DNA from: Rhodothermus bifroesti
GTDB taxonomy: Bacteria > Bacteroidota > Rhodothermia > Rhodothermales > Rhodothermaceae
Assembly (NCBI RefSeq): GCF_017908595.1
Contig: NZ_JAGKTL010000002.1
Span: 124,001-188,000 of the forward strand
Direction of reading: 5' to 3'
DNA: 64,000 bases
The position numbers and the translations under genes are program-made. Numbering within the stretch: position 1 is the stretch's first letter; each line of letters starts with the position of its first letter. Below are positions 41,780-44,504 of this stretch, piece after piece. Below the pieces are notes generated by a model, which was given only the letters and a program-made list of their open reading frames with translations, ran no database searches and was not told the DNA's origin.

Positions 41780-42733
41780 TTACTTTGCAGCTGCCCGTTC
41801 TAGGCGATCCATGAGGGCTAAACCCAGGCCGATGCGTGGGACACGCTGGGCGTAGATGCGTTTGCAGCCCGCTGCGTCGCTCCGGCGAAAAAAGTCAAAC
41901 AACTCGTAGGCATAGGTGGCTACGTCGGGGCATACGCAGCACAGACCAAAGGCTTCGGGGTGCGTTGGCGAAGCAAGCCCAATGTAGGCATGCTGCGGAT
42001 GCGGCTGGGCTGCCTGGGGCGTATCCACCAAAATAACTTGGGCCTGGGGCGCATAGTGACGGTAACGGGTCCCGGGACTGCGTGCTTGGCGTACATCATC
42101 AGGCGTTGCCAAACGGGTTTGGGGTACCACTGCTTGTAAAGCCTCTAAGGGCACCGCACCAGCACGCAGCACCAGAGGCTCTGCTCCAGTACAATCGACT
42201 ACGGTTGACTCCAGGCCCATATCGCTACGATCTCCCTGGAGGATACAGGCAATGCGACCGTTGAGATCAGCATAAACAGCCTCCCACCGCGTAGGGCTGG
42301 GGCGGCCGGACCGGTTGGCCGAAGGGGCAGCTACAGGGATACCACAGGCCCTAAGAAACGCTTGGGCCATAGGATGGCGTGGCATGCGCACCCCAACCGT
42401 TGGTAGCCCAGCGGTTACCTCATCTGGAACTGCTGGATGGCGCGGCAACACCAACGTCAAAGGTCCAGGAAAAAACCGATCGATAAATCGCTGGGCCGTT
42501 TCCGGCACTTCTTGCACTAACGCAGCAAGTTGTGCAGGTTCGGCAATGTGCACAATGAGGGGATTATCCAGCGGCCGACCTTTAGCCTCAAAAATTTTGC
42601 GGACAGCCTCTGGATTGAAAGCATCGGCCCCTAGGCCATAGACCGTTTCTGTGGGAAAGGCCACAAGTTCCCCTTGGCGAACCAAGGCAGCAGCAACCTC
42701 AACATCGCGTGTGAGGAGCGTAGCGTGAGACAT
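41780..42733 (-). CDS. tsaC: Threonylcarbamoyl-AMP synthase (Sua5 form)
   Basis: 317 residues from the ATG at 42733. Makes threonylcarbamoyl-adenylate for the t6A37 modification of ANN-decoding tRNAs. The N-terminal YrdC domain has FPTETVYGLGADA, KGRPLDNPLIVH and PGPLTLVLPR, with PSANRSGRPSPT and the 'LESTVVDC' strand. It is the longer two-domain Sua5 form, with a C-terminal Sua5 domain linked by SPGTRYRHYAPQ. Translation starts opposite the B2-like gene, leaving about 113 bases for divergent promoters. Confidence 0.93.
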   Translation of the reverse strand: MSHATLLTRDVEVAAALVRQGELVAFPTETVYGLGADAFNPEAVRKIFEAKGRPLDNPLIVHIAEPAQLAALVQEVPETAQRFIDRFFPGPLTLVLPRHPAVPDEVTAGLPTVGVRMPRHPMAQAFLRACGIPVAAPSANRSGRPSPTRWEAVYADLNGRIACILQGDRSDMGLESTVVDCTGAEPLVLRAGAVPLEALQAVVPQTRLATPDDVRQARSPGTRYRHYAPQAQVILVDTPQAAQPHPQHAYIGLASPTHPEAFGLCCVCPDVATYAYELFDFFRRSDAAGCKRIYAQRVPRIGLGLALMDRLERAAAK

Positions 42734-42846
42734 CACTTCCGTGGGTTTCAGATCTCCGCCTGCTTGCGCCAAAAGCAGATGACTCTAGGGCCGATGATGA
42801 AATACCTTTGCTATTAAAGGTTTCGATATCAAGTAAGTGATGCGTT

Positions 42847-43416
42847 GTGATTACACGTTGGCGCAGTGCCCGGCCCAATCAAGCACCCCTCACACCTGAT
42901 TTAGCGCAGCCGCCTTCGCTGCGCCGGATGTTAAGGCTTTCCTTGCGCAAAGATGCCTTACGCAAACTCAGAAAAGGGGATTTGTCGTTACTCTGGAAGA
43001 TTTTTAAGCTTATTGCCAAGCTAGAGTGGCAGCAACGACGGTTGGCCTTGCCGGAACTCATGCAGCAATTTGAACCCCAGCTTGGCGAATTGCCACTTTC
43101 ACCAGCCATGCTGGAACGTGCAGAGCGCTTGACGCTAGCCGTACTACGACGCCTTTATGGTTATAACTTCTGCATGAAACAAGCACTGCTATTGTACTAT
43201 TTCTACAAACGTGCCGGGAAGTCGGTTTGCGTACGCTTTGGCGTGCGCAAGGAAGCAGGCGGTTTGCAAGGGCATGCCTGGATCGAATGCCACGGCATTC
43301 CTATTGCTGAATTAGAAGATCCCAGAAAGCAATTCGTGATTACCTATACCCATCCAAATCCGCTTTTGTCCAAATTGGGGGAATCATTTCAGGAACAGAA
43401 TTTGCAAAGAAAATAG
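42847..43416 (+). CDS. Lasso-peptide-type B2 protein (transglutaminase-like protease)
   Basis: 189 residues from the GTG at 42847, or 162 from the ATG at 42928 (MLRLSLRKD), which looks closer to the usual B2 start. The transglutaminase-like B2 fold removes leader peptides in lasso-peptide synthesis. Visible marks: catalytic Cys in YGYNFCMKQALLLYYFYKRAG, then 'VRFGVRKEAGGLQGHAWIE' with the catalytic His, and a following Glu/Asp-rich strand. It is paired with a PqqD-like gene 100 bases downstream. I see neither a precursor nor an asparagine-synthetase-like cyclase, so its present role is unknown. Confidence 0.78.
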   Translation: MITRWRSARPNQAPLTPDLAQPPSLRRMLRLSLRKDALRKLRKGDLSLLWKIFKLIAKLEWQQRRLALPELMQQFEPQLGELPLSPAMLERAERLTLAVLRRLYGYNFCMKQALLLYYFYKRAGKSVCVRFGVRKEAGGLQGHAWIECHGIPIAELEDPRKQFVITYTHPNPLLSKLGESFQEQNLQRK

Positions 43417-43515
43417 CAAGCCTTGGTTTTCAGATCACCGATTTGTGCACTGTCCGGCTAGGAGGAACTGGAAGAGGCCTATACCTATCGCCAAACTCAA
43501 ACCTAGCGCTATCCT

Positions 43516-43791
43516 ATGAAATGCTATGAACCTATCCCTGAGGTAAGCTTTACCCGATTCGATGAAGGGGAGGGGATCTTGCTGCACCTAGCGAACAACA
43601 CCTACTACACGCTTAACGCTACGGGGGTGTTTATCTGGGAGCAGCTCGCGCAAGGGCCAAAAAGTGTTTCCGAAGTGGCAGAAGCGCTGCTGGCGCACTT
43701 TGACGTGTCGCCTCAAGAAGCTTGGCGACAGGCCGAGCTCTTCTTAGAAGAACTTGCCCAACAGGGCTTAGTAAAAGCCCAGGCTGGTTAA
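43516..43791 (+). CDS. PqqD-family peptide-recognition protein (lasso B1-like)
   Basis: 91 residues. PqqD domains (RiPP recognition elements) bind leader peptides for modifying enzymes. The sequence fits well: FDEGEGILLHLANNTYYTLN (beta-hairpin with the typical 'L....YYLN'), GVFIWEQLAQGP, then a helical end with 'LLAHFDVSPQEAWRQ'. With the B2-like protein upstream it makes a B1–B2 pair, the front half of a lasso-type system. The 100 bases between them hold no clear promoter or terminator. Confidence 0.82.
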   Translation: MKCYEPIPEVSFTRFDEGEGILLHLANNTYYTLNATGVFIWEQLAQGPKSVSEVAEALLAHFDVSPQEAWRQAELFLEELAQQGLVKAQAG

Positions 43792-44003
43792 AAGATCGTT
43801 ATTGGGCTTTGCTTTGGGGAATTTTATATGTAAATTTTGCGACGTTCCTGGAGTGTCCGGGGCGTGTAATTTTGTGAAACCGTTATTGTAATCCAAAAAA
43901 GCTTTCCCAAGTCCAACAATCCACATAGGGTTTTTGCTGCCCCACGCTCACGGGCACGCCGCGCACCGTTTCGAAAGTTTCCTTTTAGCCCGTGGGTGGT
44001 AGT

Positions 44004-44504
44004 ATGAAAGGGCACGTGCTTGTTCTGAATCAGGACTTCAGCGTGCTCACGGTGTGCAGCGTCGAGCGCGCGCTTATCCTGGTTTTTTTGCAAAAGGCAG
44101 AGGTGGTAGAGGCCTATGCGGATCGGTTTGTGCGTTCCCCTAGTCTTCAGTTTCCTTGGCCTAGTGTGGTTCGGCTTAAAGGATATGTGCGCGTGCCTTA
44201 CAAGCACATCATGCTCAGTCGCAAGAACATTTTGCGCCGGGATCGCTACCGTTGCCAGTATTGTGGCAGTCGTGAAAACCTAACGGTTGACCATGTCATT
44301 CCACGCTCACGCGGCGGGAAAGATACGTGGGAAAACTTGGTGACGGCCTGCACGCGCTGCAACAACCGCAAAGGGAATCGGACGCCAGAAGAAGCCGGCA
44401 TGCAACTCCGCAGTCAGCCCTTCCGTCCCAGCCACATTATGTTTATTCGCGACTTTGTGGGCGTGATCGACGAGGCTTGGAAGCCGTATTTGTTTCTGGT
44501 TTGA
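44004..44504 (+). CDS. HNH endonuclease family protein
   Basis: 166 residues from the ATG at 44004. The C-terminal HNH domain has RDRYRCQYCGS and CTRCNNRKGNR as the two zinc-knuckle pairs, with LTVDHVIPRSRGGKDTWEN between them holding the catalytic His and Asn. The N-terminal 80 residues (VLVLNQDFSVLTVCSVERAL) belong to the common stand-alone bacterial HNH family, which is widespread outside mobile elements and of unknown role. The 212 bases upstream hold no other gene I can support. Confidence 0.9.
   Translation: MKGHVLVLNQDFSVLTVCSVERALILVFLQKAEVVEAYADRFVRSPSLQFPWPSVVRLKGYVRVPYKHIMLSRKNILRRDRYRCQYCGSRENLTVDHVIPRSRGGKDTWENLVTACTRCNNRKGNRTPEEAGMQLRSQPFRPSHIMFIRDFVGVIDEAWKPYLFLV

Follow-up and report, generated by a model that had tools for sequence, protein, structure and literature searches.

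The closest described systems are lasso peptide pathways with a split leader peptidase, such as PadeB1/PadeB2 of paeninodin and BsfB1/BsfB2, in which a stand-alone RRE accompanies a transglutaminase-like protease (PMC5067487, PMC8498205, PMC10368454). In paeninodin, release of the core takes both proteins, and B1 or B2 by itself does not cut (PMC5067487). The Rhodothermus bifroesti genes described here are of the same make-up, and the likeness extends to the leaders, which carry the W/YxxPxL motif and T(-2), and to a kinase and a nucleotidyltransferase among the associated genes (PMC5067487, PMC8498205, PMC10368454). Unlike in the split B1/B2 systems, however, the Rhodothermus B2 is encoded outside the lasso cluster and belongs to a separate clade, and the cluster contains a second PqqD. 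One lasso peptide enzyme encoded away from its cluster has been reported, namely the citrulassin PAD deiminase (PMC12971885), but this is an accessory tailoring enzyme, whereas the distant Rhodothermus enzyme is a predicted core leader peptidase. The HPr-rel-A system (TIGR04352 kinase, TIGR04353 PqqD) also places an HprK-related kinase beside a PqqD-like protein, and both Rhodothermus counterparts show weak similarity to it; nevertheless the kinase scores far below the curated cut-off and the PqqD below its own. A literature search, with most subscription journals outside it, found neither a Rhodothermus lasso peptide nor a lasso cluster whose B2 is encoded elsewhere.

The analyzed stretch of R. 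bifroesti DNA, 64,000 nt in length (hereafter the window), contains the following features at the locus:

41780..42772, minus strand: YrdC/Sua5-like gene, a conserved flank anchoring the locus in the genus
42773..42846, plus strand: 74-base gap, where in five relatives YrdC and B2 are separated by an NTP_transf_5 gene of about 1070 bases
42847..43416, plus strand: B2-type leader peptidase, a transglutaminase-like cysteine protease of the satellite clade (from profile scores, tree and catalytic residues)
43417..43515, plus strand: 99-base gap, occupied in five relatives by the gene for an HprK-related kinase, about 980 bases long
43516..43791, plus strand: PqqD-family peptide-recognition protein (RRE/B1-like) of the satellite type (from profiles, nearest structure and tree)
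43992..44504, plus strand: HNH endonuclease-like gene, the conserved flank on the opposite side

The sequence-only reading had recognized a B2 homologue and a stand-alone PqqD in 42847-43791, and profile searches confirm both assignments. The B2 protein (189 aa) matches Pfam Transglut_core3 (E 2.6e-13, 50.3 bits, cut-off 26) and NCBIfam NF033537 lasso_biosyn_B2 (56.6 bits, above the curated cut-off of 33). Its Cys109 and His143 are invariant across homologues, and Glu155 is kept except in the most distant one. In the AlphaFold model (mean pLDDT 73.7) Cys109 lies at the start of a helix and His143 on a strand. Foldseek and VIA-align searches with this model retrieved mainly transglutaminase-like enzymes and proteases, together with unrelated chains, all with low scores and low Z, while a PDB sequence search yielded a single spurious helicase match and nothing else; the assignment of B2 to the transglutaminase-like fold is thus mainly supported by sequence profiles. 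The PqqD protein (91 aa) is a member of the PqqD/RRE superfamily according to Pfam PF05402 (E 2.1e-19, 70 bits, cut-off 23.4), and among solved structures the lasso RRE TbiB1 is closest to it in sequence. It scores below the lasso-specific cut-offs (NF033536, 48.1 vs 80; NF033530, 42.9 vs 70). Genome-wide searches of R. bifroesti detected one Transglut_core3/B2 protein, i.e. the window copy, and two PqqD proteins, only one of which is in the window. No promoter-like site was found at the pair, where a terminator was predicted only at chance level, and the window contains no Rfam or tRNA features.

Inspection of the neighborhoods of the pair in relatives, which the sequence-only reading had suggested, revealed that the window pair is a reduced form of a four-gene operon. 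In five Rhodothermus genomes (G001, G002, G004, G005 and G006) the same locus comprises NTP_transf_5, B2, HprK-like kinase and PqqD, in that order, flanked by the YrdC and HNH genes wherever the contig extends to them. A further relative, G003, has an NTP_transf_5 pseudogene spread over several frames and a degraded kinase region, with B2 and PqqD intact; in the window genome (G000) both the kinase and NTP_transf_5 are absent, no remnants of either were detected in the 74- and 99-base gaps, and the intact B2 and PqqD are still neighbors. B2 is found in all seven Rhodothermus genomes examined (60-62% identity), each time together with an intact PqqD of the window type. Where dS is measurable, including pairs with G003, dN/dS of B2 is about 0.06-0.19, compared to 0.17-0.31 for the HprK-like kinase of the operon; B2 is under purifying selection, which is suggested also along the G000 branch, where dS is near saturation. 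These data bear on the proposal, raised initially, that the pair is a remnant. It holds in the sense that the two genes are the leftover of a four-gene operon, two members of which are gone in G000 as well as in G003. That the pair is decaying and no longer has a role is nonetheless very improbable, given that B2 and PqqD have stayed intact in 7/7 genomes, being retained while their neighbors were lost, and that B2 combines the low dN/dS with a preserved Cys/His site.

The pair had been regarded as an orphan with neither precursor nor cyclase. This is correct for the window, as we found no precursor or cyclase at the locus, but not for the genome (2.88 Mb, 8 contigs), in which a search for lasso cyclases and leader-like peptides, proposed together with that reading, located both about 160 kb away on the same contig (C2, about 326.7-333 kb). 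The gene order of this remote cluster is glycosyltransferase, NTP_transf_5, GMC oxidoreductase, oxidoreductase, HprK-like kinase, cyclase, two short genes, ABC exporter, and PqqD. Its cyclase is one of two asparagine synthetase homologues above the cut-off in the genome and the sole lasso cyclase (NF033535, 714.8 bits, cut-off 525); its N-terminus reads MSAIFG instead of MCGI, i.e. it lacks the glutaminase cysteine of true asparagine synthetases. The shorter of the two precursors exceeds the cut-off of the "rhodolasso" model NF033534 (102.6 bits vs 30), and the cluster PqqD just exceeds that of the lasso PqqD model NF033536 (81 bits vs 80). The cluster departs from the NF033534/NF033535 families in having no B2, either by HMM or by tblastn, and in predicted cores with neither Asp nor Glu at positions 7-9. 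Thus, although neither cyclase nor precursor adjoins B2, the genome as a whole holds a lasso set comprising a cyclase, a leader-bearing precursor, an RRE, a B2, and an exporter. Wherever the relevant part of the cluster was read in a Rhodothermus genome, it includes a kinase and a PqqD of its own; an NTP_transf_5 of its own is present in G000, G003, G004 and G006.

Next to the cluster PqqD of Rhodothermus we also observed a gene whose product looks secreted and carries an FTxCxxxTxxNATL-like motif (L020:12963-13919, L061:14865-15686), and a related motif adjoins the isolated second PqqD of Roseithermus (L166:3355-8874). G005 contains two lasso cyclases with separate precursors, while in G006 the GSG-type precursor and its cyclase are on different contigs (L066/L068 and L065/L067 for these two genomes); either the number of lasso clusters varies within Rhodothermus or the assemblies are broken.

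Both short genes of the remote cluster encode leaders of the form W(-17)xxP(-14)xL(-12)...T(-2), with the spacing of exactly -17/-14/-12/-2 that published lasso precursors show (PMC10368454). When the seven Rhodothermus genomes were searched with a degenerate DNA pattern of the leader, nine exact matches were obtained, all nine within clusters of the remote type, compared to one match for the reversed pattern used as a control. Widening the pattern to Tyr added four matches that are scattered, unrelated and not shared between genomes, close to the control level (seven); one of the widened-pattern matches, the third in the window genome (C3:371737), was rejected, as it is out of frame with any small gene. 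Recurrent matches in the seven genomes therefore occur only in the B2-less cluster, with the reservation that more divergent leaders escape the pattern. Canonical leaders (L020:10080-10659 and equivalents in L061-L067) precede cores of two families, one with two Cys residues (GSCWYGKQGGQYDADLGPGTLSDCR) and the other rich in Gly, Trp, His and Pro and ending mostly in LSGL. The classical Asp/Glu at positions 7-9 of the core is missing from both window-genome peptides, which have LGK and PWL there, and likewise from the cores with T(-2) leaders in the relatives; for this reason the product of the Rhodothermus cluster is only a candidate lasso peptide.

We compared 244 genomes of the class. A lasso-type B2 is present in 49 of them and a lasso cyclase above the cut-off in 24, all of which also possess B2 (Fisher p 6e-20, with relatedness ignored). 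In most other genera the lasso cluster consists of PqqD, B2, cyclase, precursor, kinase and exporter, and in other genera of the order the cluster B2 adjoins PqqD and the cyclase. B2 lies outside the lasso cluster in 7/7 Rhodothermus genomes, Roseithermus sacchariphilus G171 and G181, and the same applies to one of the clusters in G154. The clearest example of a distant B2 is Roseithermus: in G171 the cluster lacks B2, and the sole B2, of the same clade as that of the window, is 1.7 Mb apart on one contig; the genome has a lasso cyclase, and the precursor has a classical core from A1 to E8 (AYGINGAE). A scan of the genome contigs with a profile built from the B2 alignment retrieved only Rhodothermus, Roseithermus and one doubtful match in Deinococcales, which overlaps an NTP_transf_5 frame.

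In the B2 tree the Rhodothermus proteins, including that of the window, form one fully supported clade with the only B2 of Roseithermus and the second one of G155; this clade sits on a long branch separate from the cluster B2s. G154 has a B2 similar to this satellite clade, and in G155 the satellite B2 exists alongside a cluster B2. The tree thus rejects relocation of the cluster's own B2 to the window locus: the window B2 is no ortholog of the cluster B2s, and the pair did not come out of the cluster. In the PqqD tree the window protein groups with the second Roseithermus PqqD and with one from G154, with weaker support than in the B2 tree, so that it probably falls in the satellite group as well. 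A satellite B2 coincides with a B2-less cluster in three of four genera, vs one of ten (one-sided Fisher p 0.04, from few independent events).

Membership of B2, and probably also of PqqD, in satellite groups could mean that the pair is what is left of an independent system without a cyclase (precursor, RRE, B2, HprK-like kinase and NTP_transf_5), which trims another peptide. Such systems exist in other genera of the class, as we found quartets of PqqD, B2, HprK-like kinase and NTP_transf_5 without a cyclase, adjacent to a precursor with a lasso-type leader, in four genomes:

L177:1845-4974, cyclase-less quartet in G225
L179:5065-8556, cyclase-less quartet in G221
L182:2980-6437, cyclase-less quartet in G186
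L183:1915-5358, cyclase-less quartet in G185

The quartet cores are AEYGGLD...LFAMASP in two genomes and short and rich in Ser, Thr and Pro in the two others. These quartets are possibly an undescribed linear type of RiPP, and since they have a precursor of their own, the ancestral substrate of the satellite clade may differ from the lasso precursors. For Rhodothermus, however, we consider the independent system the main competing explanation but an unlikely one: in none of the seven genomes does a leader-bearing precursor adjoin the pair or an intact quartet, the recurrent leaders are confined to the remote cluster, and that cluster would be left with no B2 at all.

The explanation we favor, and regard as probable, is that a lasso-type RiPP pathway is split over two loci and that the window pair serves as its module for removing the leader. 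The main argument for a joint function is that G000 and G003 have dropped genes that are duplicated in the remote cluster, and that what they have kept includes the B2 absent from that cluster. Among the options put forward initially, that of a precursor encoded elsewhere is the best supported: the genome has a single B2, a single lasso cyclase and two or more lasso-leader precursors, the latter in a cluster devoid of B2. According to this scheme, the precursors, cyclase, HprK-like kinase, ABC exporter and second PqqD would be made from the remote cluster, the window PqqD or the cluster PqqD would bind the leader and present the precursor to the window B2, the Cys/His site of the latter would cut after the residue following T(-2), and the cyclase would then act on the freed core. 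By analogy with paeninodin, binding of the leader by PqqD and cutting near T(-2) by B2 is the most likely way in which leader removal works here; the cleavage of the remote leaders by the window B2 is the role we predict from sequence. As to the history, the satellite B2 would formerly have belonged to the NTP_transf_5-B2-HprK-PqqD operon, the cluster's own B2 would have been lost, which would have made the satellite pair its sole leader peptidase, and the kinase and nucleotidyltransferase, duplicated by the remote cluster, would then have been dropped in the window species; the order of these losses is likewise conjectural.

Either PqqD may be the partner of the window B2; the cluster PqqD is of the lasso type and the window PqqD scores below the lasso cut-offs. 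This difference would suit an arrangement in which the window B2 works only with the cluster PqqD and the window PqqD does something else, e.g. serves a different enzyme, yet we give it little credence, because the window-type PqqD and B2 occur together in 7/7 genomes and remain neighbors after the loss of the kinase and NTP_transf_5, and because a related PqqD has also been kept in Roseithermus.

If leader removal is indeed carried out from a distance, a RiPP pathway can swap a core enzyme for a distant relative from a sister system. Genome-mining tools seek lasso genes side by side, and a pathway with a distant protease would seem incomplete to them; by the same token a Rhodothermus or Roseithermus cluster cloned alone would fail, and B2 and PqqD should be added for expression. 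A more tentative generalization, which we find somewhat doubtful, is that the satellite B2 clade, at first a part of the cyclase-less quartet, has on repeated occasions assumed leader removal in trans for lasso clusters whose own B2 was lost (in Rhodothermus, Roseithermus, and perhaps G154), and that the quartet represents an undescribed RiPP type with lasso leaders and without a ring-forming enzyme; it points to a testable cyclase-less group of lasso-leader peptides. In G154 an unrelated frame of about 200 aa (L169:8115-9040), which reads like a putative 2-oxoglutarate oxygenase, is located between PqqD and the cyclase, where the sister genus has B2.
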